Virus record (IMG/VR): IMGVR_UViG_3300032156_000422
Span: 1 to 20,071 of that record
From: a virus
DNA: 20,071 nt
Reading direction: 5' to 3' (one strand)
Below, piece by piece: positions 2,565 to 19,413 of this stretch. The number at the start of each line of letters is the position of its first letter. Within the stretch, counting starts at the first letter, position 1. A program made the position numbers and the translations under genes. Under the pieces are notes generated by a model. The model did no database searches. It saw only the letters and a list, made by a program, of their open reading frames with translations, and was not told the DNA's origin.

Positions 2565-3047
2565 TTAATTGTTCCATTTTTTTAGGTATTCAATTGCACT
2601 GTTTAACGATTGAATGTTCTCATTAAATATTCCGATACCCCGATTACAATAATTACAAAGCAAACCGCGAACCTGATTTGAAGAATGATTATGGTCAACT
2701 GATAGCGCCTTATTACATTCACTTTGATGTTTTCCACATATTGAACAACACCCGTTCTGTTTATCAAATATTTTATTATATTGTTCTAATGTCATCCCAT
2801 AGAGTAGTTGTAATGAACGCTTTCTATAATATTCTTTGTTATGCTGGCTTGTATTACGATAACGTTTTAGAATTGCGTTTTGTTGTTCAGGGTGTTTCTT
2901 ACGCCATCTATAAATATATTTCTTAGCACGTTCATAATAACACTTCTTACATACTCCTATTCGTCCAACCTTATCATGTTTAAGTTTGTATTTCGGAAAT
3001 TCTGTTTCCTCTTTTCTCTCATTACAATGTTTACAACATTTTACCAT
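2565..3047 (-). CDS. Homing-type endonuclease, endonuclease VII family
   Basis: A 160-residue basic protein. The C-terminal half matches the recombination endonuclease VII family (beta-beta-alpha metal fold). Cys101, Cys104, Cys131 and Cys134 are the expected zinc ligands. Asp118-His119-Asn-His121 is the catalytic DHxH motif, and Asn135 follows the second Cys pair in the place of the T4 enzyme's metal-binding Asn62. The motif 'QVRGLLCNYCN' is typical. An extra N-terminal zinc-finger-like segment (Cys5-x2-Cys8 and Cys33-x2-Cys36) may bind DNA. All key residues are present, so it is probably active. It sits alone between two fibre genes, as free-standing homing endonucleases do, rather than in a recombination module. 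It is clearly related to the copy at 11433-11894. A debranching resolvase role is possible but less likely given this position and a second copy. Confidence 0.85.
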   Translation of the reverse strand: MVKCCKHCNERKEETEFPKYKLKHDKVGRIGVCKKCYYERAKKYIYRWRKKHPEQQNAILKRYRNTSQHNKEYYRKRSLQLLYGMTLEQYNKIFDKQNGCCSICGKHQSECNKALSVDHNHSSNQVRGLLCNYCNRGIGIFNENIQSLNSAIEYLKKWNN

Positions 3048-3060
3048 GTTAATAAATATA

Positions 3061-6000: not shown

Positions 6001-6123
6001 GTGCATTGACCACGAATTGGTCAGCACCGCGGCATTTACGATTGGCAACAATGTTGAATTGGCAAGTGAAGCCAAGTTGTCCATGTCGGCTTGTGTTATA
6101 GAGTTGCCAGAAATAACACTCAT
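3061..6123 (-). CDS. Large distal tail / baseplate or fibre protein (unrecognised)
   Basis: A 1020-residue protein, the largest in the window. I start it at ATG 6123, which overlaps the TGA stop of the upstream nuclease gene (ATGA); a TTG two codons earlier is the alternative. The N-terminal 40 residues look helical. Residues about 90-180 show alternating Tyr/Val strands and a fibronectin-III-like pattern (FLINWSWDAPAGGADGYIVEKY split around residues 131-152). Residues about 190-215 are helical, and the rest is Ser/Asn/Gly-rich and beta-like. A Gly/Ser/Glu linker lies at about 866-892, followed by an aromatic C-terminal domain (IFWAV-type strands, INFFFYPQANYGD). Its place after the tape measure and distal tail genes suggests a tail-tip hub or large fibre. 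I recognise no enzymatic motif and no named family. The tail assignment is by position. Confidence 0.6.
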   Translation of the reverse strand: MSVISGNSITQADMDNLASLANSTLLPIVNAAVLTNSWSMHEYDYDYFNPTKQTQPAYEFPTYPNNTLPASNVIGSFVYNAGSYNSGAYPLSYSYTLYVNVYPYKVVGGKRCYCLTPAKGVATSDTTPDTFLINWSWDAPAGGADGYIVEKYIFPYVNNGAKAYIDVSNNAYSDASWPQPYTQHNPMSWNTTLNRIKADYHNLMHNIGLGADYLFNSDSNILSGPWCVGVNDPDVFPIENGPGYLDTDVYTVFYYYPIFPMLNLSGQGELYGSLGGMSYLGSSNSFTCYKNVKFVYSLNDALDGLTLSQGRRVDVGWGTLANMAELDYSASVAGNWTGVAWWLLNGPTNGPAPLVSSFGTVSATPSTGITWTTVASTNHTQYALVAHISKSVGTNEAGILQFTASGAPAGYSFAGGPFTTHRLIYSSNAQSVPIEAIHPTSTCMLINSQDMPSGNSDFIVNNVYGGAFWQISDPTVKGCWLANSLPVGGNNVFIDQDLPNYVGQVYGDLFHSTPIAVSENIPYVVNEPIITIGTQSYNMVDNPPDYSYDNNSPIYASSMRQQALLQEGTVQFTLYISGSQVFTSSVSGSTPYIHDTGLPRYNLIRQSMQPQPAQWLVMNTGSQMPLTWGTWGNPNQNLGLYTGQVLSSGSQAYYSISVPGNVTSVKINLRQSSSLNGGVKIYDGGPLPSNLTMSIYVSNTGFPNPSDPSTYNFKTTNKQVRIPNNGGVGYLDTIRNGGFNYAIQNNNTDSVYFDILTEIDTGVVPRELSFNPTTHECFSNVIADIPPGFTQFYTFPSNYPTFVGLKPVPQQGYVIFKIRATRLPVINSSGISITPSSGPQINVAIGQNKLQYDGTWQFAPFYSDNSSIGAGGSGQGAGESGGSEGAGGSGRPYTITIPSGSRDTGDIEVFWAVAHGNSLVWQSDTPVILEAWANWQPIWQNTRYGFISYYINMDINYLTNFAPMGYQFCNSFINFFFYPQANYGDIGFGEDVYGGSAATAVQFPMAKFQYDEITACLNNI

Positions 6124-6671
6124 ATACAATACCCCCGATATTTTGTTATCATTTTATTATTATTATAAGCAAGTACACGTTTGAATTCTACCAATGGTTC
6201 GCCGATTTCTTCAAAGTGTTGAATTATGTTTCGTTGACGTATTTTATCTCTTTTACTTTGCCCAAAACACTTATGATAATCTGTATCATATTCTATCCAA
6301 ATGTGTTTGTCTGAATCATATCCATCTGCGTCATATCCAATATCAAAAAACCGTTTGGGTTTATATTTACTATTTGTCTCTTTGTTATATTTATCAAACC
6401 ATTCAACTGCACCCTTATCTATACAACAGGGAATTCCATTTTTTTCAAGTCGCTTTAATACTCCAATTCTTATTTTCCTTTTAACATCTTCCGTTCTACA
6501 TTTTCCATATAGATAACATTTATTACCCCTTAGTGATTTAGATATTCTTTCTTTGTGTGACTCTGAACATTTGTGGCCCAATGTATATTTATTACCAATT
6601 AATGATTCAGAAATGTTTCTTTTCCATTCCTTTGAAAACCTTTTACCAATGTTTGGTTTTACATTTCTCAT
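6120..6671 (-). CDS. Homing-type endonuclease: NUMOD3 repeats plus Vsr-like nuclease domain
   Basis: 183 residues from ATG 6671. The open frame extends further upstream, but that part lies inside the preceding tail gene in another frame. ATG 6671 is 4 bases after that gene's TAA, so I choose it. The N-terminal half has NUMOD3-type DNA-binding repeats at about residues 12-28, 35-51 and 59-74 (for example SKEWKRNISESLIGNK). The C-terminal half has a conserved acidic pattern, DGYDSDKHIWIEYDTDYH (116-133, with Glu127, Asp129, His133), then KRDKIRQRNII (140-150). This fits Vsr-like, PD-(D/E)XK-related homing nucleases. The copy at 9196-9885 shares the same pattern. The stop overlaps the start of the downstream tail gene, so the insertion leaves both neighbours intact. 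The exact nuclease superfamily is an inference from motif spacing. Confidence 0.75.
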   Translation of the reverse strand: MRNVKPNIGKRFSKEWKRNISESLIGNKYTLGHKCSESHKERISKSLRGNKCYLYGKCRTEDVKRKIRIGVLKRLEKNGIPCCIDKGAVEWFDKYNKETNSKYKPKRFFDIGYDADGYDSDKHIWIEYDTDYHKCFGQSKRDKIRQRNIIQHFEEIGEPLVEFKRVLAYNNNKMITKYRGYCI

Positions 6672-6675
6672 ATAG

Positions 6676-7062
6676 TTATAACCATGTTCCAAGTTGTCCC
6701 ATAGGAAGTTGAATCCAGTATCCATTGCCCGTCCAAGGTGGCTGACCACTAAATGGAGTAAGTGATATTGCAACGTAAGTACCTGCATTGCTACCAAATG
6801 AAATGATTGATTGATTGAACTGGTTGTATGTTCTGGTAGGGTCATATTCACCAACAAAAGGAATGACTGCACCAGCACCGGCAGCCGCTTGTTGATTCGG
6901 TTTCTTTACAACGGTTAAACTTGTTCCGTATGAAGTTTGGGTAACAAGAATATCAGATGAAGATTTTAATGTATTACGTTTGCACCAATCCAGCAACTTG
7001 TTCCAAGCACGTCTGAAACTGGTGTCTGCGGGAGAAACAGAATGTGGTAGATAATTATCCAT
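6676..7062 (-). CDS. Small tail protein with possible carbohydrate-binding fold
   Basis: A 128-residue protein. Residues 1-35 look helical and basic (SFRRAWNKLLDWCKR), perhaps a docking segment. Residues 40-60 are a linker ending in an Ala/Gly stretch. Residues about 68-120 show the spacing of small aromatic sugar-binding modules of the CBM5/12 kind: GEYDPTRTYN, then a strand 'SIISFGSNAGTYVA', then Pro-Pro-Trp and a final 'GYWIQL'. This resembles modules attached to phage fibres and chitin-acting enzymes, but I can judge only by pattern. The gene begins with ATG in a very AT-rich leader and is followed after 4 bases by a nuclease gene. A tail accessory protein that binds cell-surface sugars is a reasonable guess. 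Confidence 0.5.
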   Translation of the reverse strand: MDNYLPHSVSPADTSFRRAWNKLLDWCKRNTLKSSSDILVTQTSYGTSLTVVKKPNQQAAAGAGAVIPFVGEYDPTRTYNQFNQSIISFGSNAGTYVAISLTPFSGQPPWTGNGYWIQLPMGQLGTWL

Positions 7063-7079
7063 AATAAATAATTAAATTA

Positions 7080-7883
7080 TTATAACCGTGTTCCATAAAT
7101 ATTTTGTGGCCAAAGTCCCGAAACAAAATCTTGGTCAACAGTTATTGTAAGTCCATTTGTGTCAAAAACAGGTGGTTGTTTTATCCAACCAAAAAGATAG
7201 GGAATACTGACGCCGTAATCCGTCAATGTCTGGTCCGTGCCTGTACTCATTATTGCCACAATATTTGATGGTATGCCAATTGCAGTAGTTAAAGTTGATA
7301 CGGAATAAATACGACCAACATTGCTTGTATAACTTGTAAGATTGTAGTTACTCGGCATTGTTATTGACTTATGCAAAACGGGATTCCTTATCGGGATGGT
7401 TTTAAATCCCCGTGTGAACATTGACCAAACCACCGCACTTGCACTATTTGCAACATTGGTATTAAAACAACTTGCTGTTTCATTATACTTCGGTGGATTG
7501 GTAAAATCGTATTCAAGTGCCTGAATTGACGCGGTGGTTAGTTGACCAATCCACGCAATCTGGCTACTATTACAATGAAGGATTTCTTTGTCTGTTATAT
7601 CATATTTTAAGTTCCATTTGACAGTAGCAAAACTTCCGCTTGCACCTTGGGTTATGGGTGTAACACCGTCACCACCCATTTCACAATTTAGGGTTGCGGT
7701 CATTTCCCACGGATTGCCCTCTTTAATATTTACATCCCAACCAGCACCGTAATAAATTGACGCACTTGCAAAAACTATTGATGACGATGGACTAGAAAAT
7801 GTATGCGTGGTAGTAGGATACTTATTCTGTTTCCAATCATACACCCTTGGGCCATAGCCACCTGTTCCGATATAATCATTCAT
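7080..7883 (-). CDS. Distal tail protein candidate (unrecognised)
   Basis: A 267-residue, mostly beta-type protein, rich in Ser, Thr, Tyr and Asn, with no signal peptide or membrane segment. It lies directly after the tape measure gene, the place of the distal tail / minor tail proteins (gpM/gpL or Dit) in siphoviruses. I do not recognise its family. Features visible: Tyr/Gly-rich N-terminus (YIGTGGYGPRVYDWKQNKY), a central strand-rich region, and a C-terminal 'GWIKQPPVFDTNGLTITVDQ' segment at about 230-250. Start is ATG 7883, 12 bases after the tape measure stop, with no evident Shine-Dalgarno site. Coding status is strong because it fills the gap between neighbours in the same direction; function is inferred from order. 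Confidence 0.5.
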   Translation of the reverse strand: MNDYIGTGGYGPRVYDWKQNKYPTTTHTFSSPSSSIVFASASIYYGAGWDVNIKEGNPWEMTATLNCEMGGDGVTPITQGASGSFATVKWNLKYDITDKEILHCNSSQIAWIGQLTTASIQALEYDFTNPPKYNETASCFNTNVANSASAVVWSMFTRGFKTIPIRNPVLHKSITMPSNYNLTSYTSNVGRIYSVSTLTTAIGIPSNIVAIMSTGTDQTLTDYGVSIPYLFGWIKQPPVFDTNGLTITVDQDFVSGLWPQNIYGTRL

Positions 7884-7895
7884 ATAATTTTAATA

Positions 7896-9194
7896 TTATT
7901 CATAGTCGCCAGAATCGCCATTATTGTTGCCTGTATCTTCTGTATTTGTTGCAACGGTCTTTAACAACTCTGTTTGTTTTTGAGCCTCTGATAATTGGTT
8001 TTTTGCTACATCCAAAGCACTTGTAACATTTCCTATATTCCTGAAAGATGCACCAAACATATTGCCCGATTGAGTAAGTGAATCTGAATATACTTTCATT
8101 CCCTTTGACCCCTTTTCTTTTACAGGGATAACGGCTGAATCGCCTTCTGGTTTATTGCTTTGTCTAGCTGCCGCACGTTGAGCCATTAATGAAGTTTTCT
8201 GTTTGTTAATATCCATAAACCCCTTGTCCATATCTTTAATAAAACCAGTACCCGAAGTTTCAAGAGCCTTGCCTATGTCACTATTTGCAAAATCGCTTAC
8301 TGCACCTGACACAACTCCTTTTATTCCGCCTTTGTTATAATTATCAACTACTTTACTTGCTCCTTTGGCTGCGGCCACGATTGCGTCTTTGGTTCCTTTG
8401 ATTGGATGTTTAACAAACTCAATAATGTCGCCTATCTTCTTCTTTACTATGTCAAACATATTTATCCATAATAGAAACAGGTTCTTTAGGTAAGCATTAA
8501 CGATTAACAATCCTTCCTGAAATCCTTCCAATGCCTGACTAATCCACGGTGCAATGGTTGCCATCAACATATTACCCATTACCGCCATTTCATCCTTTGC
8601 TTGAATCATGTTGGCAATGTCCTTATCTTCCATGATTGCACCCCTGCCTTTAAGTTCAGCCACCTTTGCACCAAAGTTTTGTAATGAGTCACCAATTGCA
8701 ATCAAGTCACCACTTGCACCTTTTAATCCCAAACTCTGCAAGGCTACTCCTTCCGTTCCGGTTGAACCGTGTGCCCCTGCACTGGCAAGTTTGGCTGCCA
8801 TACCAATTTTGTTACTTGGTTTTGATAATTCACCTGTATCAATTCCCAAAACTTTGAATGCAGCCAGTGCTTTTGCATTTCCACCCAAGGCTTTTGACCT
8901 AGCCATTTCTATCTTTTTAAACGCAGTCTCTACTGTTTCAAGGCTTGACCCTGCTTCCCTTGCGACAATGCCCAAGGCTTGGGTTTCTTCGGTGGTTATT
9001 TTCATTCGCAAGGATGCCTTGTCTATCGTATCGGCATAATCCATTGTCTTTGATATAATGGAAGTAACAGCACCCACAGTAAATGCACCAGCTACCATTC
9101 CCTTCAATCCTTGAAGGTTACTTCTTACACCTTTTATAGCCGTATCAAACCCTGATTTGTCGGCTGTAAGAATCACACGAACGCGAGAGGACAT
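7896..9194 (-). CDS. Tail tape measure protein
   Basis: A 432-residue protein with the features of tape measure proteins: an N-terminal beta segment (VRVILTADKSGFDTAIKGVR), a Gly/Ala hydrophobic segment at about 30-48 (MVAGAFTVGAVTSIIS), long helical Lys/Ala/Glu-rich stretches, and a second hydrophobic region at about 205-245 (MLMATIAPWISQALEGFQEG and following). The N-terminal 'DKASLRMKITTEETQALG' pattern is common in phage tape measures. The protein sets tail length and helps DNA entry. At 432 residues it is short, implying a tail of roughly 65 nm by the usual 0.15 nm per residue. The start is ATG 9194 with a good AAAGGAGAG site at 9205-9213, inside the end of the upstream nuclease gene. 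Confidence 0.85.
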   Translation of the reverse strand: MSSRVRVILTADKSGFDTAIKGVRSNLQGLKGMVAGAFTVGAVTSIISKTMDYADTIDKASLRMKITTEETQALGIVAREAGSSLETVETAFKKIEMARSKALGGNAKALAAFKVLGIDTGELSKPSNKIGMAAKLASAGAHGSTGTEGVALQSLGLKGASGDLIAIGDSLQNFGAKVAELKGRGAIMEDKDIANMIQAKDEMAVMGNMLMATIAPWISQALEGFQEGLLIVNAYLKNLFLLWINMFDIVKKKIGDIIEFVKHPIKGTKDAIVAAAKGASKVVDNYNKGGIKGVVSGAVSDFANSDIGKALETSGTGFIKDMDKGFMDINKQKTSLMAQRAAARQSNKPEGDSAVIPVKEKGSKGMKVYSDSLTQSGNMFGASFRNIGNVTSALDVAKNQLSEAQKQTELLKTVATNTEDTGNNNGDSGDYE

Positions 9195-9195
9195 A

Positions 9196-9885
9196 TTAAT
9201 TTAACTCTCCTTTCAATACATCAATCATTCCATCTTCACCCATTCCAGTTTCGTTAATACGGATAAATCCTTTAAGTGGTTTGCCAATTATTTTATAATA
9301 ATTGATAATATTGTTTTGTCTTATTAAATCTTTTTTAATGCTATTTGGACGTAAATGAATTGGTGTATCAAATTCAAATACAATATGTCTAATAGGGTCA
9401 TATCCATCTACAAAGTATCCTAGTGTGTCAACATATACGTTTGGATGAACTATGTTATATCCCATTTTATTAAGTTGATTAAAATATTCCGTTGCACCTT
9501 TATCAATACCCGGAGCATATCCTAATGATAATATTCTATTGGCTACACTAATCCTAATTTTGTTCTTTGTTTCTGCACTCTGTCTTTTACCCTTTAACCA
9601 ACACGGTTTACCCATACACGATTTAGATATTTGTTTTCTTTGATGGTCTGTATGTTTGTGTCCCTTATGGGACAGAGACATTTTCTTTATAGAAATATCA
9701 GAGTGTTTTTTGCCCAACATAGGATGAAGATTATCATTCCACATATTTATTCCTTTATTCCAAGCAACTTGTAAACCTTTCTTGTCTTTATTCCAAGGTG
9801 TTTGACCCTTATGAGCATTAATTAGTTTCTTCCTATATTCAGGATTTTTCCATCTTAATGTTGCTGCTTTACTAAAGTTAGACAT
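9196..9885 (-). CDS. Homing-type endonuclease: NUMOD3 repeats plus Vsr-like nuclease domain (second copy)
   Basis: A 229-residue, Lys-rich protein. The N-terminal part (about 5-115) has 'WNK' and 'SISIKKMS/KRKQISKS' type repeats of the NUMOD3 DNA-binding kind. The C-terminal part shares the pattern of the copy at 6120-6671: IDKGATEYFNQLNK (128-140), then DGYDPIRHIVFEFDT (160-174, with Glu171 and Asp173), His177, and KKDLIRQNNII (184-194). The fit is to Vsr-like homing nucleases, though I could not align it to a reference. It starts at ATG 9885, overlapping the end of the chaperone gene by 8 bases, with AAAGG about 6 bases upstream. It ends 1 base before the tape measure ATG. The key acidic residues are kept, so it may be active. 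Confidence 0.75.
   Translation of the reverse strand: MSNFSKAATLRWKNPEYRKKLINAHKGQTPWNKDKKGLQVAWNKGINMWNDNLHPMLGKKHSDISIKKMSLSHKGHKHTDHQRKQISKSCMGKPCWLKGKRQSAETKNKIRISVANRILSLGYAPGIDKGATEYFNQLNKMGYNIVHPNVYVDTLGYFVDGYDPIRHIVFEFDTPIHLRPNSIKKDLIRQNNIINYYKIIGKPLKGFIRINETGMGEDGMIDVLKGELN
9205..9213 (-). promoter_or_regulatory. Ribosome binding site of the tape measure gene
   Basis: Reads AAAGGAGAG on the minus strand, with its 3' end about 10 bases before ATG 9194. It lies within the last codons of the endonuclease gene (encoding Lys-Gly-Glu), so an essential structural gene is translated from a site located inside the mobile gene. Confidence 0.7.
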
Positions 9886-10489
9886 TTTTGCCTTTCAATT
9901 TTTCCATCAATTCACATTCCTCTTTTGATATAATATTCAGTGTTCCCTGCTTATGTGCATATAGGATGAAATCTGCAAGGGTTTCATTGTATGGTAAGTT
10001 TAGACATTCTTCCCGTGTGTAGTTGCATTCAGTCATCAAAATTGATTTAATTGAATGTTCCACCGCGATTGGATTAACGCTAATGTCCGCGCCCGAATTG
10101 TTACAAACTTCGTAGTAGTAAGGTGGCGTGGTTCCGTTCTTTATGTATTGAACAAACAACTGAATTTCAATTTGTAAACTGAATAATTCGGTTGCTTCAA
10201 TTTCTTCCACCGTTTTATTTACATACTCAACAAGGTTTTTCTGTAATTCCCCACTTCTTGTTTCTTCCATGAATTCGTCATAGGTGGTTGAACATACCAA
10301 CACAGCGAATACCAATTCAGCAATTAAATCTCTGTCAGTTAATGTTTCATCAATTTTATCACGCATGAACATAGAATCTTCTTTCTTCAAAATCATTGCA
10401 TGACCCAAAGAAAAGGGATACAATCGCAATCCCATGACAGGGGTTGTTAATTGCAATACTTGTTTGGTATAATCCTTGTAAGTATTCAT
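9878..10489 (-). CDS. Tail assembly chaperone candidate
   Basis: A 203-residue acidic, mostly helical protein between the tail tube and tape measure genes, where tail assembly chaperones (lambda G/T position) are found. The N-terminal segment 'LRLYPFSLGHAMILKKEDS' (about 22-40) has the 'PFtLGHa..L' pattern of phage proteins at this position. The middle (about 60-120) is Glu/Leu/Ile-rich. It contains several Cys (CNNSGADIS, ECNYTREECLNL) with no clear zinc pattern. I see no programmed frameshift that would give a longer form; the downstream gene is a nuclease in another frame. It would act in the cytoplasm by binding the tape measure before tube assembly. The leader has no clear Shine-Dalgarno site. 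The call is by position and weak pattern. Confidence 0.5.
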   Translation of the reverse strand: MNTYKDYTKQVLQLTTPVMGLRLYPFSLGHAMILKKEDSMFMRDKIDETLTDRDLIAELVFAVLVCSTTYDEFMEETRSGELQKNLVEYVNKTVEEIEATELFSLQIEIQLFVQYIKNGTTPPYYYEVCNNSGADISVNPIAVEHSIKSILMTECNYTREECLNLPYNETLADFILYAHKQGTLNIISKEECELMEKLKGKNV

Positions 10490-10495
10490 ATTGAA

Positions 10496-10509: not shown

Positions 10510-10511
10510 AA

Positions 10512-10898: not shown

Positions 10899-10902
10899 AT
10901 TA

Positions 10903-10923: not shown

Positions 10924-11388
10924 TCAAAAAGAAGTCCTAGAACAAATCACTTCAAACTTTTGGCTGGCCATCCAACCATCCGCTATTGGTGTTACTTCTA
11001 GACCATCTTCCACCATCGAATGATATTTAATATCAACCGAATTAAATGACATTGTTGTTTCAATGTCATCTACTGTTAAAAACGGGTTGAATACTAAATC
11101 ACTTACCGTTTCAAAATCTGTTGCAGTTGTTCCTTCACCGTATAAATCAGTTACACGGATTGCTCGCGTTGTCAATTCCAACTGTGCTTTACATATTCCA
11201 AGTTTGTTATATGGATACATTGGTGTTTCATCAAAACACCTGATTACAATATTTGGATACTTTACCCCCTGTGTATCTGCTTGGTCGAATTGACCGTAAA
11301 TATGCCATGTTGAGCCAGTCCAATTACTTGCCAATGAACTTAAAATTACTTTCTTTGCTGCATCAATTATTTTGTTTTGGACTAACAT
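10924..11388 (-). CDS. Tail terminator / minor tail protein candidate
   Basis: A 154-residue protein between the neck genes and the tube gene, matching the place of lambda gpU-type tail terminators. The N-terminus is helical (NKIIDAAKKVILSSLASN), followed by strands and a conserved-looking segment 'KYPNIVIRCFDETPMYPYN' (about 43-61), typical of small tail-completion proteins that list 'P.i.i...'. The C-terminus ends in a strand (SQKFEVICSRTSF). Its usual job would be to cap the tube at the head end and join it to the neck. The start ATG 11388 has AAAGAG a few bases upstream; 43 bases separate it from the preceding nuclease gene. Family not recognised with certainty. Confidence 0.5.
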   Translation of the reverse strand: MLVQNKIIDAAKKVILSSLASNWTGSTWHIYGQFDQADTQGVKYPNIVIRCFDETPMYPYNKLGICKAQLELTTRAIRVTDLYGEGTTATDFETVSDLVFNPFLTVDDIETTMSFNSVDIKYHSMVEDGLEVTPIADGWMASQKFEVICSRTSF

Positions 11389-11432
11389 ATCTCTTTATAA
11401 ATAGTAAATTGATTACGAACGATTGAACTTAT

Positions 11433-11894
11433 TTAGTTATTACTGAACTTGGATAGGTATATTATTCCTGATTTCAAAACATCCATATTATCCTTAGCAT
11501 AACCAAGCATTGGATTACAATGATGACACAATAATCCTCTAATTCTATTTGTTGTATGGCAATGGGCAAAAGATAACGACTGTTTTTCTTCAGATTGATG
11601 TTTGCCACAAATTGCACAACAACCGTTTTGCGAATTAAATATCTTATTGTAATCTTCTAATGTAATTCCATAATTATATTTCAAATTATGGTTACGGTCA
11701 TAATCAGGATTATTCTTTCTGTATTCTCTAGCATTCCTATTATATCTTTCCCTATGGCACGCATATTTTTCTTTATGATATTTATTAAGTTCCTTTACTT
11801 TTTCAGGGTTATCCTTACGCCATTCTTTTGCCCGTTGTGAATATTCTTCTTTATGGGCCAAATAGTATGCTCTTTTATATTCTTTACTTTGCAT
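11433..11894 (-). CDS. Endonuclease VII-family homing protein with altered active site
   Basis: A 153-residue basic protein. The N-terminal 65 residues are a Lys/Arg/Tyr-rich repeat region (YKRAYYLAHKEEYSQRAKEW and onward). The C-terminal half is an endonuclease VII fold: Cys93-x2-Cys96, 'RIRGLLCHHCN' with Cys123-x2-Cys126 and Asn127. The catalytic motif reads Ala110-His111-Cys-His113 instead of Asp-His-x-His. In T4 endonuclease VII the equivalent Asp40 binds the metal ion, so this copy may be inactive or weakened. The codon is GCC; GAC would encode Asp, a one-base difference. It is related over the whole C-terminal half to the copy at 2565-3047 (shared 'NKIF..QNGCC.ICGKHQSE'). It starts 2 bases after the neck gene's stop. 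It is not frame-shifted, so it may be recently inactivated or adapted. Confidence 0.8.
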   Translation of the reverse strand: MQSKEYKRAYYLAHKEEYSQRAKEWRKDNPEKVKELNKYHKEKYACHRERYNRNAREYRKNNPDYDRNHNLKYNYGITLEDYNKIFNSQNGCCAICGKHQSEEKQSLSFAHCHTTNRIRGLLCHHCNPMLGYAKDNMDVLKSGIIYLSKFSNN

Positions 11895-11896
11895 TG

Positions 11897-12508
11897 TTAT
11901 GACCTATTAAATTTATCGGCGGGAATTCCAAGTTTTTTTTCCAAGTACGCAACCATATCAGAGTTAATCTTGGTGACACCCGCGTCTGCTCCTTGTTGTT
12001 TTAGTTGTTCAACAAAACTTTTGTTGCCTGAACCCTCAACGTCATTCCAAAATGACCCTTCATAAGTGCTACCTGTTTTTCTTACTGGTTCTGCTCCGCC
12101 GTAAGTTGACCGTGTGACACCTGATATGGATGCGAATGCCTTACCAACTTTTCTTAACAATATTTTTATTCCCGGCAAATAACCGGCTTTCACAAATGCT
12201 ATATGTGAAGTTCTTTTACCTTTTAATTTCTGCACTTCTGCTTCCAAGTCAAATATATCTTCACCACTTGCTTCTTTCTCTTTAATAACAATCATTTCGG
12301 CAACTGAACGATTCGGGTATTTTGATGACCTTTCATTCAGGGATGCGACTATGGTTGATTTGTTAGCCTTTGGTGTTTGTTTTAATGATTCACGGCAACC
12401 ATCGTACAATTTAAAATTTATAGCGTCCTCTGTTGTCTTTGAAGTTTCGTTCAAATACAAATTGAGATTGCGTTGAAACGTCGCGTCATCTACATGGACA
12501 CTTATCAT
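11897..12508 (-). CDS. Neck / head-tail joining protein candidate (gp10- or gpZ-like)
   Basis: A 203-residue protein following the first neck gene, in the place of lambda gpZ or HK97 gp10. The N-terminus (VHVDDATFQRNLNLYLNETS) is typical of proteins that begin with a strand and a helix ahead of a basic core. The middle is basic and helical (VQKLKGKRTSHIAFVKAGYL, about 92-111), then 'GVTRSTYGGAEPVRKTGSTY'. The C-terminus is a helix with 'INSDMVAYLEKKLGIP'. Such proteins complete the connector and aid head-tail joining. The start is ATG 12508, 6 bases after the previous stop. No family can be named with certainty; the placement is consistent with the expected gene order. Confidence 0.5.
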   Translation of the reverse strand: MISVHVDDATFQRNLNLYLNETSKTTEDAINFKLYDGCRESLKQTPKANKSTIVASLNERSSKYPNRSVAEMIVIKEKEASGEDIFDLEAEVQKLKGKRTSHIAFVKAGYLPGIKILLRKVGKAFASISGVTRSTYGGAEPVRKTGSTYEGSFWNDVEGSGNKSFVEQLKQQGADAGVTKINSDMVAYLEKKLGIPADKFNRS

Positions 12509-12514
12509 AAATTA

Positions 12515-12835: not shown

Positions 12836-12847
12836 GATATTATATTT

Positions 12848-12892: not shown

Positions 12893-12917
12893 ATTGTTTA
12901 GTAAATTATTTATTCTG

Positions 12918-13778
12918 TTAAGCCGTGACACTCCATCTTGCTGCACTGCCTGCTCTACCACGGGCAACACCTTCAATAAGATGAGCACGTCCACGAATAA
13001 TACCGCCAACAGCATCTTCAAGCAAATCTACTGCGATTGTAAGTCCTGTTGGTTCATCTACAATCAAAGTACGATTGTATCCGTTTAACACAGGTGGAAG
13101 ACGGAGTGCGATTGCAACTGCGTCTGGTGTTGCGAAATATACATAAGTATTGTCTGTAAGTTTTGGCACTCTACGAACAGTAGCGTCACCATACTGGAAT
13201 GCGTCTCCGCCTTTGGAAACTATATCCCACATACCGTAACCACTTGATTTAGCATCGGCTTGCATTTGTGAATAATTTGCTGTTGGGCAAAACATGGAAA
13301 TTTCCCCTTGTGAACCTGAGAAAATCAATACGTTTGAACCGGATTGAATTAGTCCGAATTTGACAGCGGAGCCACTGATTGCTCCAACTGTCCCACAATT
13401 AAGTGCAAGGGCAGCGTAAGCTTTCTTTTCTACTTCATCCAAAACAGAATTGACTGCGGATTCCATTCTACTAACAAGGAAATCTTGTGTATAAGTGCCG
13501 GATTCCAATGGTGATAAGAAAAATTCTTTATACAGCGGCTCTTCTAACGTAACATCAACTGACGAAACTGTTTCGGTTGCGGCAGTATAAAGGTTTGTTG
13601 AATTCCATTGTGAAGCACTTGTGGTTGATTGATAAGGGACGTTTACTACGTTTCCTTTACCTTGAATTGCAGCGGAAAAGTCCGAAGCAAATGTTGACAG
13701 ACGTTGGCAGCGTTGACGGAGCGCAGGCATAAATTGGTCTGTGGTTATAACACCGTATGATGGTAATGTATTACCCAT
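12918..13778 (-). CDS. Major capsid protein
   Basis: A 286-residue protein following the protease and scaffold genes and preceding neck genes. The N-terminus (MGNTLPSYGVITTDQFMPAL) leads into a helical, Arg-rich segment. A 'GNVVNVPYQSTTSASQW' strand at about 42-58 and 'LEEPLYKEFFLSPLESGTY' (about 78-96) fit HK97-fold capsids, including P22-like relatives. A helix then runs through 'VLDEVEKKAYAALALN'. Strands near 200-225 (ATVRRVPKLTDNTYVYFATP) and a C-terminal Arg/Gly stretch complete the pattern. It would form the head shell. The AAAGGAAAG ribosome site lies at 13788-13796, inside the end of the scaffold gene. Its codons look less AT-rich than the fibre and nuclease genes, as expected for an abundant product. 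Identity is by fold pattern and order. Confidence 0.75.
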   Translation of the reverse strand: MGNTLPSYGVITTDQFMPALRQRCQRLSTFASDFSAAIQGKGNVVNVPYQSTTSASQWNSTNLYTAATETVSSVDVTLEEPLYKEFFLSPLESGTYTQDFLVSRMESAVNSVLDEVEKKAYAALALNCGTVGAISGSAVKFGLIQSGSNVLIFSGSQGEISMFCPTANYSQMQADAKSSGYGMWDIVSKGGDAFQYGDATVRRVPKLTDNTYVYFATPDAVAIALRLPPVLNGYNRTLIVDEPTGLTIAVDLLEDAVGGIIRGRAHLIEGVARGRAGSAARWSVTA

Positions 13779-13781
13779 ATA

Positions 13782-14282
13782 TTATATCTTTCCTTTAAAT
13801 TGTTTTTTGTTTAATTGTTTCTTTTCTTTCAAAATTTCTTTGTTGTTTTGAAGAAAATATACTGACATTTCGTTTGGACTAAGTTTAGCCAAAGCATCCA
13901 AGTGTGGAGTTTTAGCCGTGTTGTCCGGTTGAACGTCAATAATTACATTAGTTCCTTGTGAGGCAACCAATGCAATTGATTCTGCCACTACTGACTCTTT
14001 CGTGGCGGAAATTTGTTTTTGTGAATCTTCTTTTACCTTTACCAACTCTTTGTCTTTGTCGGCTAATTTGGTTTCGTATTCACTTTTGAGGGTGTCCAAT
14101 TCTTTCTTATGGGCATCCTTCATTTGTTCGGCAGTCTGAGCCGACTCAATAAATTCTTTGTTTGTCTTTTCAAACTCTTGAAGTTTCAAAAGTTGTGTGT
14201 CCCTGTCGGCAGTCATATCAACCAATCCTTTTTTCAGGCGGTCAATCTCTGCGTTTGCTTTTACTAGATTTAAAAAAATCAT
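13782..14282 (-). CDS. Scaffold protein candidate (coiled coil)
   Basis: 166 residues from ATG 14282, with a purine-rich site (AGAAAGAAC) upstream. A longer frame extends into the protease gene in a different frame, but ATG 14282 fits the protease stop at 14302. Residues about 10-100 form a strong coiled coil rich in Glu, Lys, Asp and Gln (LKSEYETKLADKDKELVKVK). A following segment 'VASQGTNVIIDVQPDNTAKT' resembles the end region of some phage scaffolds, and the C-terminus is basic (LKEKKQLNKKQFKGKI), as needed for binding the coat protein. It sits between the protease and the capsid gene, the usual scaffold place. Unlike lambda Nu3 it is not nested in frame in the protease gene. A decoration protein is less likely given the coiled coil. 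Confidence 0.65.
   Translation of the reverse strand: MIFLNLVKANAEIDRLKKGLVDMTADRDTQLLKLQEFEKTNKEFIESAQTAEQMKDAHKKELDTLKSEYETKLADKDKELVKVKEDSQKQISATKESVVAESIALVASQGTNVIIDVQPDNTAKTPHLDALAKLSPNEMSVYFLQNNKEILKEKKQLNKKQFKGKI
13788..13796 (-). promoter_or_regulatory. Ribosome binding site of the major capsid gene
   Basis: AAAGGAAAG, 9 bases before ATG 13778, located in the last codons of the scaffold gene. The same 9-base site precedes the gpW-like gene, and a near match precedes the tube gene. Confidence 0.7.
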
Positions 14283-14301
14283 ACGATTGTTCTTTCTATA
14301 A

Positions 14302-15186
14302 TTAGTTCTGACTTTCGGAAAGAAGCTGAATAAATTGCTCCAGACCGTTAATTGTTCCATCTGTCAAATTGGTTCCCAGTTCAATTGCTTCTCTACCGTA
14401 GAATGGTTGGCCCTGCATGAATTCATCCTTAACTGCACCACGATTGGTTATAACCATTGATTTGAATTCGTTGTTCATTGTGATTATATCATCAAGTATC
14501 TTGACTTTTTGTTCATTATTAAGAGCAATGAATTCGGAGCCGATTGTTTTTTCTGTTCCACCCTGAAACGTAGTTACGATTATTCCCATATCTGGCAAAG
14601 TGCTTTCGGTAACTCCGTTTGAACCACTTAAAGATAATGGACTAGCTCCTATAACCGTTACACATTCGCAGTAAGTTCCAATTGAGCCGATTAAGGATGA
14701 AGGAGAGGCGATTATATTGGTGCAATTACTGGCAATCTCATACGCCATTGAACACATATAACCCGAAGTGTAAGCATAAATTGGTTTGATGGTTGATAAT
14801 TGTTTAATTAGTTCACAAGTTTCTGCTCCGTGCATTGTATAACCACCACCCGAATCAAAGTTAATTACTACTTTGTTTACAGATTCGTCACTAATAGCCA
14901 GTTGCAAATCTTCACAGAAATCTTGTAATGAAATCAGGTCATAATATTTTTCTTCTTCCTCTGAACATTTATTGATTGTGAAACCACAGAAATCTAAAAT
15001 AGCAATGTCACCGGATTTAACGTAAGGAACATCTGCAACGGTGGCGGGAATAAGGTCATCCATAAAATCAGCCTTGATAGCAGATTCAATCTTTGTCTTA
15101 AACGCATTGTAATAATCCGGCGTTGCCAATATTGGCTTACCTTTATTGGCGTTATATTGTGCAATTAAATTAGTTGAGATATTCAT
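14302..15186 (-). CDS. Prohead protease, S49 (SppA/ClpP-like) family
   Basis: A 294-residue serine protease. Residues 104-115 (NKVVINFDSGGG) form the strand and oxyanion loop typical of SppA-type S49 peptidases. 'YAYTSGYMCSMAYEIAS' (137-153) contains the nucleophile, probably Ser146. 'SPSSLIGSIGTY' (161-172) is the conserved GSIG segment. 'GGTEKTIGSEFIALNNEQK' (209-227) matches the region holding the catalytic lysine of bacterial SppA, here probably Lys213. In phages of this order the enzyme matures the portal, scaffold and coat proteins. It lies between the portal and scaffold genes, and all catalytic features are present. The start ATG 15186 follows the portal stop by 3 bases. Confidence 0.85.
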   Translation of the reverse strand: MNISTNLIAQYNANKGKPILATPDYYNAFKTKIESAIKADFMDDLIPATVADVPYVKSGDIAILDFCGFTINKCSEEEEKYYDLISLQDFCEDLQLAISDESVNKVVINFDSGGGYTMHGAETCELIKQLSTIKPIYAYTSGYMCSMAYEIASNCTNIIASPSSLIGSIGTYCECVTVIGASPLSLSGSNGVTESTLPDMGIIVTTFQGGTEKTIGSEFIALNNEQKVKILDDIITMNNEFKSMVITNRGAVKDEFMQGQPFYGREAIELGTNLTDGTINGLEQFIQLLSESQN

Positions 15187-15189
15187 AAA

Positions 15190-16797
15190 TTAATTATTGG
15201 ATAGTGTTGCAGTTCCGTCTTGGTTGTTATCTGGTATAATTGGTTCAGGTGGTTGTGTAGTAGTGATTATACTTATATCGCGTTTGCTTAACCATTCTCT
15301 TGCTTCTCTTTCTTCTGGTGTTACATTTTTATAGTCATTTGCAAGTTTCTTTGCTCTATCGAATAAATCTCTTGTCTCTTTGTCTCCTTGTTCACTGACA
15401 ACTAACCAATCAGTTCCACGCTTCGCACATATTTCTTCTTTGGTGCTAATACCAAGTTTCAATGATTCAATTTGCGCTGCGTTGTCATACCCCGTGTCGC
15501 AAGTAATCAATGCCGGTTTTGAGAACGTCCAATGCATAAAAGTTTTGTTATCCGTCATTGGCACTAATCCCAGTTGCATTGCAGTTGCTAACCCATATTG
15601 AGTTATCGCTTTTGCTCTGCGTTCCAAAAGCCGTTGACGATATACAACCAATTTGCGGGCTTGGTCTTGAATGGTTCTTACACTTGTTCCATTCAAACGA
15701 CTCGGAGTGATTAGTTCAATAAACCATCCTATTGAAGCAACTGCTTCACTTGAAATTCTAAAAAGAAATTGCTCAACATTCGGGCTGGGTCTGTCAAAAT
15801 TAAATGGTTGAATATCTGAACCATCCAAGGACGAAATGAATTCAGTTGCACCTGCATTGACCGATTCAAAAAATACCTTGCTTTGGCTTTGACCGGGAAC
15901 TGCAACCGATGTTGCTGGTTTGGCTGTCTCTACTCCAAATATTCTTTTGCCTTTGGGAGCAACACCCTTGCTATTCTTGTGAATAATACCTTTACGGGAA
16001 AAGTTCTTAACAGTTATTTTCAGTAAATCGTTTATGTCCCTAATATCCATCAATGTTGTAACCGCATTGGCAATCTTACTTACACCGTGGACGGCTCCAT
16101 CCCACATTGCTTCAAAGCAATAATGACAATTAAACAAAGAAATATACTGGTCGTCATCCTTGGTTGGACCAAGAATACATAATGCAATCGGCATATTATC
16201 ATTATTAAAAACAACACCGTCATAGATTTTGTATCCATTATAAGAGCCTTTAGCCGATACTATTGTTTCACCATCCCTGCTTCCTATAAGGTCTGTTGGT
16301 ATAAGTTGGATTCGTGGCAGTCCTGATTTAGTATTTCTGTAAAGCATCAAAGAACCACCGCAAACGTCACAATCTTTACCCGTTAAAAAAAGTGTGTCTT
16401 GAAATGAATAATTCTGGCCCTGCCAATTAACATTTGGGTAATAATCATTTATCAACCAATTTTCTGCCGCAATTACCCATTGTTTGTCTATATCTTCTTT
16501 TCCTTTTCTTATATCACCGGCAAAGTTTGGTTGCCACGCGTCACCTACGCACACTTGGTTCTTATTAACTATTGCGGCGGATACAATCGGCATTTTTGCA
16601 AACAAGTCCCTGCCTAATCTTATCTGTTCCCGTCTTTCGTAAGGTAGAATTATTTTTTCAGGAGTAGGATTGATACTATACCAAGTCGGCATGTACCGGG
16701 TGTAATCTGTCGAAGGAGTCGCAAGCAATGATTGTTTAACATTTGGTTTACTTACCAAACTTTTTCTTTTATTTTTTGAACCAAGTCTGCGACCCAT
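15190..16797 (-). CDS. Portal protein
   Basis: A 535-residue protein between the gpW-like gene and the protease, as in lambda-type heads. The N-terminus is basic (MGRRLGSKNKRKS). 'YERREQIRLGRDLFAKMP' (about 53-70), followed by 'VSAAIVNKNQVCVG', matches the 'R..ar.l....p....i....vvG' start of lambda-family portals. The C-terminal half has long helices (TIQDQARKLVVYRQRLLERR at about 379-398) and 'TKEEICAKRGTDW', a segment common in these proteins. The portal forms the 12-fold DNA channel and docks the terminase. It is close to the usual length for the family. Start ATG 16797 has AGGAATA upstream. The last 30 residues are Thr/Pro-rich and flexible. Confidence 0.85.
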   Translation of the reverse strand: MGRRLGSKNKRKSLVSKPNVKQSLLATPSTDYTRYMPTWYSINPTPEKIILPYERREQIRLGRDLFAKMPIVSAAIVNKNQVCVGDAWQPNFAGDIRKGKEDIDKQWVIAAENWLINDYYPNVNWQGQNYSFQDTLFLTGKDCDVCGGSLMLYRNTKSGLPRIQLIPTDLIGSRDGETIVSAKGSYNGYKIYDGVVFNNDNMPIALCILGPTKDDDQYISLFNCHYCFEAMWDGAVHGVSKIANAVTTLMDIRDINDLLKITVKNFSRKGIIHKNSKGVAPKGKRIFGVETAKPATSVAVPGQSQSKVFFESVNAGATEFISSLDGSDIQPFNFDRPSPNVEQFLFRISSEAVASIGWFIELITPSRLNGTSVRTIQDQARKLVVYRQRLLERRAKAITQYGLATAMQLGLVPMTDNKTFMHWTFSKPALITCDTGYDNAAQIESLKLGISTKEEICAKRGTDWLVVSEQGDKETRDLFDRAKKLANDYKNVTPEEREAREWLSKRDISIITTTQPPEPIIPDNNQDGTATLSNN

Positions 16798-16813
16798 ATT
16801 GTTTATATTCCTA

Positions 16814-17050
16814 TTAAATTGTCATTGAGAAGTCCGGCGTTAATTCTGTAATTAAATTACCGTTGTATTCATCCCAGTAGAAATCAATCGCATCCACCAG
16901 TTCTTTTGTAGGGGCAGCAATTACACCTTTGATGGTTGTTCCTTCACTTGCAAACTCTGTCAGTTGAACACCGGCCAGCATATCGGCTTGCACCTTTTCT
17001 TGTAGTTGTTTTACAAAATCTGGTTTGTAGTAGAGTGGATTGATATACAT
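16814..17050 (-). CDS. gpW-like head-tail joining protein candidate
   Basis: A 78-residue protein between the large terminase and portal genes, exactly where lambda gpW lies. Its pattern (helix 'YKPDFVKQLQEKVQADMLAG', then a beta segment 'VQLTEFASEGTTIKGVIA', then a helix 'TKELVDAIDFYWDEYNG') fits the alpha/beta gpW fold, though gpW itself is shorter. It would help stabilise DNA in the filled head and join the tail. A strong AAAGGAAAG site lies at 17056-17064, just after the terminase stop. The assignment is mainly positional. Confidence 0.5.
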   Translation of the reverse strand: MYINPLYYKPDFVKQLQEKVQADMLAGVQLTEFASEGTTIKGVIAAPTKELVDAIDFYWDEYNGNLITELTPDFSMTI

Positions 17051-17055
17051 ATATT

Positions 17056-17064
17056 CTTTCCTTT
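17056..17064 (-). promoter_or_regulatory. Ribosome binding site of the gpW-like gene
   Basis: AAAGGAAAG, 5 bases before ATG 17050. Same 9-base site as at the major capsid gene. Confidence 0.6.
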
Positions 17065-17068
17065 ATAA

Positions 17069-18958
17069 TTAGTTGATAGTTTCGGTATTCGTTATATTTT
17101 CTTCTTCCTCTTTCACTTCACCAGCATCCAAACACCCATATAAATCCATACCCACCAAAATTTCTTTTTCACAATCCCAAAAGTGTGCAGGTGTATTCGG
17201 TTTATCCACATACTCAAAATCTGCGGTATTACCTTTTAACTTCCTTTGCAGGACAACTGCATTAAGATGGTCTGTATATTCTTGGGTAACATCTACTGCT
17301 TCCCATTTCTTGCCTTTACCATCCCTTAAAGTTTCAAGTATTTGTGAGTAACGAAATGAACTGAATGTAACGTGAGTTAATATCTTTCCTTCATCTTCTT
17401 CTCCATCGGCCAAAGCAACGGGATATTCCTTCGGTTCTGCATATCTATACCATTTATTATCGTCGTGTCTGAAACCCTTTGCGCCTGAACCTTTCAATGA
17501 GATATAACTTGTCCAAATTGTTTCACCGTCAATCTCCGCCCATCTTCCGTGTTTGACACACTCTGCATAAATCGTTTCCGTCTTGGTTCCGTTGCCTGAA
17601 TCCACCAAGACAAACCTATAATCAATCTTGTGTCTGTCTCTGATTGCATCCAACTCATTCAAAGTGTTACAAGTTCCTTGTGCAATCAATCTGCTTTCAC
17701 CCATTCTATTACACGCACGAACAACGTAATAAAAAAACGGTTCAGTTGCTTGGCAATCCACTCCCATAAATCTAAATGCTTCGGTTTCACCGAATGGTTT
17801 TGATATGTCATAACTACTCAATTTAATTTCGGTTCTTTGTCTCTTTACAAATCCATCCCAGAAATCAGCCAAGTCCGATTTGATGAAATCTTCCAAGTCA
17901 TCCGTGTCACCAAAATAATCTTTCTTCTGGGTTGCTCCCAAAAATCGTGTAGTCAATTCTGCAAACGGTATTTTTACATTACAAAGATTTGTAAACCGAA
18001 AACTTTTAACAGTAGAATTATCACCACAAACTTTAATCCACTCTCCGTTATGCAATATATGTTCCCTGTTTTGTGGATTATCCGTTACTTGATATTTACA
18101 CTCTTTACATTCCAATACTGATTGTTTGCTACACTCTTTCATTAGCCATCTGTTATTAGCATCCTTGGTTGAATTATTATTTGGCCAAACAATTCCATAT
18201 CTTGAACCATCGGTCCTTTTACCTTGAAACTCAAAGCGTTGAAGTTTGTTGCATTTCGGGCAAGTCCATCCATACTCATATACTTCGCCTGAATAAAATT
18301 GCTCATACCAAGGACTGTCTTTTATTCCACCTTGGGAAAAGAACATACACTTACTAACACCCTTGTAATCATCCATTCTGCGTTTAGCATTTTTTATGAT
18401 GGATGAACCTTTTACTTTTTCCACTTCATCCCAAAATATCCGGCCATAACCCAAACTATTAAATGTGTTTTCTTTTGGAGAAGTTACAATGACAGTGGAA
18501 TGCAGAAACTTAAACCTGCCTTCGGTGACAGCATACTTGCTATTTGTATCAATTAAATCTGCAACAGGTTTGCAACTCTTTAGCAGGGGAATCATTCGCA
18601 AGTCAGTAACTTGACCGGCCTTTTCTTCCGTTACTTGCAACCAAAGAATATCAATCGCAGCCGAAATTAAATCGTGCAGGAAACATATTTCAGCAATTAA
18701 AGTTTTACCACTTCTTGGCGGAGCCAAGATATTAACTTCACGGACAAACGGGTCTTGGTAAGCATCAAATATTTTCTTGAAATGTGGACTGATTGAAACG
18801 TCAAACGGGCCTTTGATGGTGTAACCTGAATACAGGGATACGTTATCTTTTGCCCATTCATATATGAGGCGGGCGTCACTTGGCTTGTATGCATTCCTGA
18901 ATACGTCAATCAAGTCATTCTTAAAAGAATTATCTAAACTGGTTGTTACTTCATTCAA
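17069..18958 (-). CDS. terL: Terminase large subunit, GpA family
   Basis: A 629-residue packaging motor subunit with ATPase and nuclease parts. Walker A is APPRSGKT at 79-86 (Lys85), and the Walker B-like stretch is GRIFWDEVEKVKG (172-184). A zinc-ribbon-like segment has Cys233-x2-Cys236 and Cys284-x2-Cys287. The nuclease part has 'FMGVDCQ' (Asp401) and 'FVLVDSGNG' (Asp453), the acidic sites of the GpA nuclease. Length fits the GpA family (lambda gpA 641). It would cut concatemers, probably at a cos site, and drive DNA into the head through the portal. The frame opens with TTG at 18956-18958, sharing bases with the TGA stop of the preceding HNH gene; no in-frame ATG lies close by, and AAGGAG at 18970-18975 supports this start. 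Confidence 0.9.
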   Translation of the reverse strand: MNEVTTSLDNSFKNDLIDVFRNAYKPSDARLIYEWAKDNVSLYSGYTIKGPFDVSISPHFKKIFDAYQDPFVREVNILAPPRSGKTLIAEICFLHDLISAAIDILWLQVTEEKAGQVTDLRMIPLLKSCKPVADLIDTNSKYAVTEGRFKFLHSTVIVTSPKENTFNSLGYGRIFWDEVEKVKGSSIIKNAKRRMDDYKGVSKCMFFSQGGIKDSPWYEQFYSGEVYEYGWTCPKCNKLQRFEFQGKRTDGSRYGIVWPNNNSTKDANNRWLMKECSKQSVLECKECKYQVTDNPQNREHILHNGEWIKVCGDNSTVKSFRFTNLCNVKIPFAELTTRFLGATQKKDYFGDTDDLEDFIKSDLADFWDGFVKRQRTEIKLSSYDISKPFGETEAFRFMGVDCQATEPFFYYVVRACNRMGESRLIAQGTCNTLNELDAIRDRHKIDYRFVLVDSGNGTKTETIYAECVKHGRWAEIDGETIWTSYISLKGSGAKGFRHDDNKWYRYAEPKEYPVALADGEEDEGKILTHVTFSSFRYSQILETLRDGKGKKWEAVDVTQEYTDHLNAVVLQRKLKGNTADFEYVDKPNTPAHFWDCEKEILVGMDLYGCLDAGEVKEEEENITNTETIN

Positions 18959-19413
18959 TTATTTCTTAACTCCTTATTGTCGTGGTATTGAGCAATCATC
19001 TTACAAGCCAGAATAAATTGATTATAGGTAAGTTGTTGTTTCATAATATTTATAAACCCACAACAGAATACAATGTTTTCTTTGGTGTAACCCTTAGAAT
19101 TATCCAATCTATCAAGTGAAATCGTAGTATATTTATTACACTCCAAAGTTAAGGCTAATCCTGTATAATGACATACCAAAGGCATTGATTGTAAATCTTT
19201 CAATTTTAATTCAAACGTATGTCCACGTATTTTGGCGTTTCCCTTCCAATGAATAAATCTACCATTTAACGTTTCCGCATATTTTTTATACATTTTTCGT
19301 CCTCTATTAGAATTATAATATTTATTCCTATATTTTTTTAATTGTTCCCTGTGAGATTGTCTATATTTGTCATAATATTCTTTATAGTATCTATAATGTG
19401 CTTTAGTATTCAT
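18955..19413 (-). CDS. HNH-type homing endonuclease between the terminase genes
   Basis: A 152-residue basic protein. The N-terminal 60 residues are Lys/Arg/Tyr-rich (YYKEYYDKYRQSHREQLKKY), similar in style to the N-terminus of the endonuclease at 11433. The C-terminal half fits an HNH group common in phages: 'LVCHYTGLAL' (79-88), then 'TISLDRLDNSKGYTKENIVF' (97-116), then 'FINIMKQQLTYNQFILAC' (120-137). In this group the 'SLDR.DN..GYt..N' stretch stands in for the classical HNH core. It lies between small and large terminase, a common entry point for HNH genes, which in some phages assist cos cutting. The start is ATG 19413, 4 bases after the small terminase stop. Its end supplies the large terminase ribosome site. 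Confidence 0.8.
   Translation of the reverse strand: MNTKAHYRYYKEYYDKYRQSHREQLKKYRNKYYNSNRGRKMYKKYAETLNGRFIHWKGNAKIRGHTFELKLKDLQSMPLVCHYTGLALTLECNKYTTISLDRLDNSKGYTKENIVFCCGFINIMKQQLTYNQFILACKMIAQYHDNKELRNN
18970..18975 (-). promoter_or_regulatory. Ribosome binding site of the large terminase gene
   Basis: AAGGAG, 11 bases before the TTG start at 18958, inside the last codons of the HNH gene (Lys-Glu). It supports TTG as the real start. Confidence 0.6.

Follow-up and report, generated by a model that had tools for sequence, protein, structure and literature searches.

The window analysed here is a linear viral contig of 20,071 bases (IMG/VR record IMGVR_UViG_3300032156_000422), in which all genes lie on the minus strand and form the head-tail operon of a tailed phage. 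Five intact open reading frames (ORFs) of nuclease type, called HE1 to HE5, are found between the colinear head and tail genes. The order is terminase small subunit (TerS), HE5, terminase large subunit (TerL, GpA), gpW-like protein, portal, S49 protease, scaffold, major capsid, head-tail connector, t203, HE4, t154, tail-tube-like protein, putative tail assembly chaperone (chap), HE3, tape measure protein (TMP), t267, t128, HE2, large tail protein, HE1 and two fibre-like genes. An initial annotation had described five nuclease genes of three types, each between structural genes on the same strand and together taking about 2.6 kb of the 20 kb. The coordinates, strand and types held up (Table 1), and the measured total is 2646 nt, or 13.2% of the window, with lengths of 483, 552, 690, 462 and 459 nt for HE1 to HE5. 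A single correction concerns HE2, which had been listed as an ORF at 6120-6878. Its first 70 or so codons come from reading the upstream structural gene t128 out of frame, and the true start is most likely the ATG at 6671, not 6878. The apparent deep overlap of this ORF with a structural gene is explained by the wrong start codon and was dismissed.

HE1 and HE4 belong to the Endonuclease VII (EndoVII) type and are 48% identical to each other over the alignment. HE1 carries the complete CX2C...DHxH...R...CX2CN motif (CSICGKHQSECNKALSVDHNHSSNQVRGLLCNYCN), and in both proteins the motif is located at the C-terminus, not in the N-terminal part as in the T4 resolvase. HE2 and HE3 possess NUMOD3 repeats at the N-terminus, followed by a nuclease domain in which D160-G-Y-D163, E171, H177, D186 and R189 are invariant in 43 homologues. 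This C-terminal domain, left unclassified by family searches, is likely Vsr/EDxHD-like, as judged from an AlphaFold model of HE3 (pLDDT 79.6) that gave weak Foldseek matches (E 0.14-0.57), with a probability of 0.84 to 1vsr and 0.47-0.51 to 3r3p, the catalytic domain of I-Bth0305I. The assignment of HE5 as an HNH-type endonuclease comes from PHROG profiles only. A search with the Pfam HNH profile (PF01844) found no member in the phage family, and the same search misses HE5 too.

No group I or group II intron, other Rfam family or tRNA was found in the window, and the five nuclease genes are therefore free-standing. Their GC content (0.281-0.315) is below that of every structural ORF (0.355-0.432; Mann-Whitney p=4e-4), and a similar difference was observed in a relative, G012 (0.360-0.394 vs 0.424-0.504, p=3e-4). 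Several of the endonuclease genes overlap the start or stop codons of their neighbours and are read with the operon; the stop codon of HE2, for example, overlaps the start of the next gene (ATGA). Furthermore, several carry a Shine-Dalgarno-like sequence near the 3′ end.

The test set beforehand was to compare the operon with relatives and look for empty sites at the five junctions. The relatives are syntenic IMG/VR viral contigs; a search of viral contigs with the single TerL protein found nothing, and alignment-based searches were needed to recover them. G001 (IMGVR_UViG_3300049893_000522) has the gene order of the window, with TerL 64% and portal 69% identical, and is endonuclease-free at all four junctions where a gene-for-gene comparison is possible, namely TerS/TerL (where the genes overlap), t203/t154, chap/TMP (1-base overlap) and t128/tail. 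G022, G023 and G024 are also colinear with the window (t203 66%, t154 56% and large tail protein 47%). Empty sites are present at all five window junctions in G022 and G023, while the G024 contig ends inside chap. In the coordinates of contig L209 (G022), the spacing at the empty junctions is an overlap of 4 for TerS/TerL, 2 nt for t203/t154, an overlap of 1 for chap/TMP, 12 nt for t128/tail and 30 nt for tail/next gene. The only endonuclease gene carried by these three genomes is a homologue of HE5, on the other side of TerS. Among the wider set of relatives, the HE1 site is empty in G022 (30 nt) and G017 (15 nt), the HE2 site in G001, G002, G012, G014, G017 and G022, and the HE3 site in G001, G022, G014 and G021. 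HE5 is missing at TerS/TerL in G001, G003, G004, G017, G021 and G022.

Other junctions are occupied elsewhere in the family. G012 (26 kb) contains six endonuclease genes, at S49/scaffold, scaffold/capsid, between two tail-tube-like genes, at tail-tube/chap and at chap/TMP, plus an HNH_3 gene on the opposite strand, after the tail protein. G017 contains three (connector/t203, before the tail-tube gene, and chap/TMP), G014 two (a GIY-YIG gene at gpW/portal and another gene at S49/scaffold), G021 one (portal/S49) and L204 one (TerL/gpW, GIY-YIG plus NUMOD3); GIY-YIG enzymes were seen in G014 and L204 only. In the scans made of G002, G003, G004, G006, G011 and L195/L196, no endonuclease was found. 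Counting the window, an endonuclease gene is present in one member or another at about 14 of the 17-18 junctions. The only occupied site shared with the window is chap/TMP, where homologues of HE3 are present in G012 (46%) and G017 (49%). Thus, relatives all carrying the same five genes, the pattern named in advance as contrary to a lineage under repeated invasion, were not found. Repeated invasion is supported by the empty sites in relatives and by the occupation of other junctions in more distant members, with the qualification that HE4, one of the five, has probably lost catalysis.

The relationships among the enzymes provide further evidence of movement. Over 104 aa, HE5 and its G022 homologue are 70% identical, whereas TerL, TerS and portal of the same two genomes are only 31%, 26% and 33% identical. 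The homologue lies directly upstream of TerS in G022, G023 and G024, and HE5 lies downstream of TerS in the window. The high identity of HE5 relative to TerL, together with its changed side of TerS, indicates that HE5 moved horizontally and suggests that its target may be in or near terS. A tree of the NUMOD3 enzymes placed the chap/TMP genes from the window, G012 and G017 in one group (99/67) and HE2 with the connector/t203 gene of G017 and a gene in a 78 kb phage contig; a further group, with 100/100 support, spans three different junctions in G012 and G017. These groupings indicate that some genes have been inherited in place and that jumps to other sites have happened as well.

Across most of the genes that G012 and G017 have in common between t203 and the tail, nucleotide identity is 70-84%, and the insertions in these two genomes lie exactly between stop and start codons; some of the endonuclease genes terminate in a Shine-Dalgarno-like stretch, such as GGAGGATAAAGCGATG. 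Their chap/TMP endonucleases (L177 13664-14356 and L183 13293-13925) are identical over the first 44 residues and diverged in the nuclease half, which suggests domain replacement. A 59-nt stretch, 81% identical, is common to endonuclease genes at different junctions of the two genomes (L177 11818-11876 in G012 and L183 13776-13834 in G017) and may be a sign of shuffling between endonucleases. A short viral contig, G016 (L182, 4991 b), contains three NUMOD3-type endonuclease ORFs in 5 kb and lies outside the phage family as far as seen.

HE4 differs from the related EndoVII-type nucleases at its active site. It has AHCH where DHxH is expected, and the aspartate is present in all 24 other distinct EndoVII motifs from related loci. 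In T4 EndoVII, the D40A mutation abolished cleavage and DNA binding was kept (PMC6083498). Because the catalytic aspartate of HE4 is replaced by the residue that inactivates the T4 enzyme, HE4 is probably a dead enzyme, by analogy with T4. Compared to working DHHRN (F-CphI type) homing endonucleases, HE4 lacks a required catalytic residue and is thus a relative of the family, not a working member.

A second feature of this locus is a short non-coding sequence directly after the HE4 stop codon, which resembles a displaced native 3′ end of t203 (Table 1). It is identical at 20 of 24 positions to the true end of the G001 homologue, and is the best match to that end in the whole window on both strands. 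The gene t203 itself ends in GATAAATTTAATAGGTCATAA (last 21 nt, 11917-11897), encoding D-K-F-N-R-S-stop, and the G001-like end is AAGTTCAACCGTTCATAATCA. Between the in-gene end and the remnant, the changes at K, F, R and S are all synonymous, the first codon (D/N) being the exception. The remnant matches G001 at 17 of 21 positions and the in-gene end at 15 of 21; to G022, the in-gene end matches at 16 of 21 and the remnant at 12 of 21. In G022, t203 and the next gene are 2 nt apart, and no second t203 end is found there. The two marks of a mobile ORF that replaces a C-terminus, an in-gene replacement end and a displaced native end nearer to the empty relative, are therefore both present at HE4, in a short sequence and a single case.

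Two broader proposals about insertion scars were considered and given up. A general rule that insertions duplicate the upstream end or the downstream start was rejected over 16 endonuclease junctions in five genomes (permutation p=0.31), and naive local alignments for flanking repeats were uninformative in this AT-rich DNA. The C-termini of HE2 (RGYCI) and HE3 (LKGELN) were considered as remnants of t128 and chap; this was largely dropped, as homologous enzymes at other sites end similarly.

Collectively, the comparisons make it very probable that the five genes are free-standing selfish homing endonuclease genes which settled one by one in an uncultured tailed phage of the lambda/GpA type, at the gene boundaries of its morphogenesis operon. 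They have the properties of free-standing phage homing endonucleases: each has its own ORF outside an intron, they belong to known homing families, allelic empty sites exist, and they have spread beyond the phylogeny of their hosts. In a co-infecting phage without the endonuclease gene, each enzyme would cut its site in or near the adjacent structural gene, and repair from the endonuclease-bearing genome would copy the endonuclease gene across with some flanking DNA. Given their position at stop-start boundaries, their reading in the direction of the operon and, in several, the Shine-Dalgarno-like sequence near the 3′ end, insertion should leave the structural genes unbroken. HE4 probably represents a late stage, in which the catalytic aspartate has been lost and the locus keeps the scar of insertion.

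Several points weigh against this explanation. Cleavage, target sites and transfer during co-infection are steps that we infer beyond the sequence itself. As the relatives are all metagenomic contigs, which positions are shared by descent is partly judged from position. In the NUMOD3 pair, the nuclease domain matches nothing in Pfam and, at the sequence level, nothing in the PDB, and it resembles the folds of Vsr and I-Bth0305I weakly. HE5 lacks any Pfam match at E<=0.1, HNH included, and has no obvious canonical first histidine, HE4 should be inactive, and flanking duplication is not general over the 16 junctions.

One alternative is that the phage has domesticated some or all of the nucleases for its own functions, for instance as a terminase-associated HNH protein such as HK97 gp74 or as an EndoVII resolvase removing branched DNA so that packaging can proceed. 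HE5 adjoins the terminase genes, where packaging HNH proteins occur (PMC10448857; Skunavirus HrdP, PMC12724721), and EndoVII is the Holliday junction resolvase of T4 (PMC6083498). However, an HK97 gp74-type protein would be expected beside the terminase throughout the lineage, and HE5 is missing from TerS/TerL in six syntenic relatives and found on the other side of TerS in three genomes. G001 manages without any of the four comparable nuclease genes, the C-terminal motif of HE1 and HE4 fits the homing clade rather than the resolvase clade, and HE4 has no catalytic aspartate. Domestication is accordingly very unlikely. The state of HE4, along with the absence of an obvious HNH histidine in HE5, speaks for another possibility, that all five are former homing endonucleases, now inactive passengers heading for loss with no current invasion. 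This too is unlikely, since none of the five frames is interrupted, the DHxH...R...N motif is complete in HE1, the D-E-H-D-R residues found invariant over 43 homologues are retained in HE2 and HE3, and the occupied sites differ between relatives.

For the repeat after HE4, the favoured explanation is that HE4 arrived with the 3′ end of t203 from its donor and that the native end was pushed downstream. A chance match, or a conserved regulatory element downstream of t203, could also produce such a repeat without any insertion, and the small size of the repeat (21-24 nt) and the other junctions without flanking repeats would agree with this. Such an origin appears quite unlikely, as the remnant is the window's best match to the G001 gene end and stands in frame at the expected place, the copies differ synonymously except at the first codon, and no such element follows t203 in G022. 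A broader reading can be offered only tentatively, and we consider it possible rather than probable: HE4 would be a phage homing element whose insertion point lies within the 3′ end of a structural gene and which brings near-synonymous codons in place of those lost, so that the gene is repaired and the cleavage site destroyed, within a group that keeps nearly every morphogenesis junction open to several unrelated catalytic families. If this is true, HE4 is a phage element with an EndoVII-type enzyme that has followed the strategy of fungal mitochondrial elements.

Known systems place these observations in context. In fungal mitochondria, mobile endonuclease ORFs at atp6, atp9, cox2 and nad3 replace the C-terminus of the host gene, and the displaced native end is nearer to the empty relative (PMC3630166). 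HE4 is likewise preceded by a near-synonymous t203 end and followed by a displaced native end that is nearer to the empty relative; it differs in involving 21-24 nt of a phage tail gene, in being a single case, and in encoding an EndoVII-type enzyme that is probably dead. In phage T4, 12 homing endonucleases are free-standing and intergenic (PMC2988022), and such genes make up 11% of its coding sequence (PMC10448857). Like the T4 seg and mob genes, which are often promoter-less cassettes on host transcripts (PMC2988022), those of the window are intronless and located between conserved genes. However, they occur in another type of phage, all five lie inside one head-tail operon, and their families are EndoVII, NUMOD3 plus a probable Vsr-like domain and HNH-type, as compared to GIY-YIG for seg and HNH for mob.

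Lactococcal Skunavirus siphophages contain 1-8 HNH genes per genome at 11 insertion positions in 89 genomes (PMC12724721). The presence and position of the endonucleases vary there as they do here, but the Skunavirus enzymes are all HNH, and almost all of those that are mobile resemble I-HmuI and are found mainly in the replication module, whereas several families occupy about 14 positions in the morphogenesis module in this group. In the T7-like Salmonella phage RN5i1, there are several EndoVII/HNH genes, two of them among late structural genes. The density, which the initial annotation had called notable, is thus high but not unprecedented. In many phages, homing endonuclease genes (HEGs) cluster at terminase, capsid and tape measure genes (PMC10448857). 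The phages studied here resemble HEG-rich ICP1 and its "HEG islands" (PMC10448857) in these locations and in an apparent domain shuffling among HEGs, and differ from them in family, as ICP1 has T5orf172 and IPA-HNH enzymes. At the level of single enzymes, an N-terminal EndoVII motif marks the resolvase clade, and HE1 and HE4 resemble the F-CphI/DHHRN enzymes in being short free-standing proteins with a C-terminal motif (PMC6083498), HE4 being unlike them in its alanine at the catalytic aspartate position. HE2 and HE3 have a C-terminal domain with invariant D, E, H, D and R residues, whose predicted fold weakly matches Vsr and the EDxHD enzyme I-Bth0305I, but they have N-terminal NUMOD3 repeats and no detectable sequence similarity to a solved structure.

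The structural genes belong to a phage with distant named relatives only. A megablast search of the window against phage records gave no match, and alignments of portal and TerL searched against 84,980 bacterial and archaeal genomes found no relative of this phage. The portal is distantly similar (22-23%) to those of Verrucomicrobia phage P8625 and Akkermansia phage Moulinsart. The capsid has no BLAST similarity to the G001 capsid (L191 5957-6883), with flanking genes 51-69% identical, and the two capsid groups are related at the profile level alone (hhalign probability 99, 16% identity). The capsid and tail genes of the window are mostly nearer to G022 and the head genes (TerL, portal and scaffold) nearer to G001, which points to a recombination boundary near the scaffold/capsid junction. 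Repeated segments of the SYALTASYA type are abundant in the two fibre-like proteins and in fibre-like proteins of the window's nearest relatives (L008 and L209 17047-17688).

Table 1. Nuclease genes, t203 remnant and structural genes of the window (percentages are identities to the relative named)
Feature	Position	Strand	Evidence
HE1, EndoVII-type (DHHRN) homing endonuclease, active-site motif intact	2565..3047	-	PF02945 E 1.6e-22; motif
HE2, NUMOD3 + probable Vsr-like homing endonuclease	6120..6671	-	PF07460 E 4.6e-10
HE3, NUMOD3 + probable Vsr-like homing endonuclease, between chap and TMP	9196..9885	-	PF07460 E 1.8e-13
HE4, EndoVII-type endonuclease, catalytic Asp to Ala	11433..11894	-	PF02945 E 4.5e-21
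HE5, free-standing HNH-type endonuclease between TerS and TerL	18955..19413	-	phrog_3322 E 2.6e-21, phrog_3118 E 1.2e-17
Displaced native 3′ end of t203, putative non-coding remnant	11410..11433	-	AATAAGTTCAATCGTTCGTAATCA, N-K-F-N-R-S-stop
TerS, terminase small subunit	19418..19972	-	phrog_57 E 2.3e-5; G001 ortholog 42%
TerL, terminase large subunit, GpA/lambda type	17069..18958	-	PF05876 E 2.1e-21
gpW-like head-tail joining protein, small conserved gene	16814..17050	-	named by position; G001 ortholog 46%
Portal protein, lambda type	15190..16797	-	PF05136 E 1.2e-10; 69% to G001
S49 head maturation protease	14302..15186	-	PF01343, phrog_53
Scaffold-like coiled-coil protein	13782..14360	-	position; 63% to G001
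Major capsid protein	12918..13778	-	phrog_283 E 3.5e-8
t203, conserved head-tail/tail gene upstream of HE4	11897..12508	-	58% to G001, 66% to G022
t154, tail gene downstream of HE4	10924..11388	-	51% to G001, 56% to G022
chap, putative tail assembly chaperone upstream of HE3	9878..10489	-	precedes tape measure; 42% to G001
TMP, tape measure protein	7896..9194	-	phrog_9483 E 3e-8
t128, tail gene upstream of HE2	6676..7062	-	38% to G001, 45% to G022
Large tail protein, 1020 aa	3061..6123	-	47% to G022
Two tail-fibre-like genes, 1812-2561 and 272-1801	272..2561	-	ORFs; 272-1801 with 28% local match to G022 gene

The endonuclease-crowded operon is a striking example of a phenomenon already known. 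That catalytic families are mixed, and that so many positions are used in a single morphogenesis operon, is less usual. Those who annotate such genomes should avoid assigning structural or packaging roles to these nuclease genes. The phage group is uncultured and has no close relative in the phage database that was searched; in its essential head-tail operon, unrelated homing endonucleases have settled again and again. Empty sites are matched by occupied ones at almost every junction, and the group offers a natural data set on how sites are chosen, how insertion at the boundaries of essential genes can be harmless and how such elements die, as HE4 probably has.

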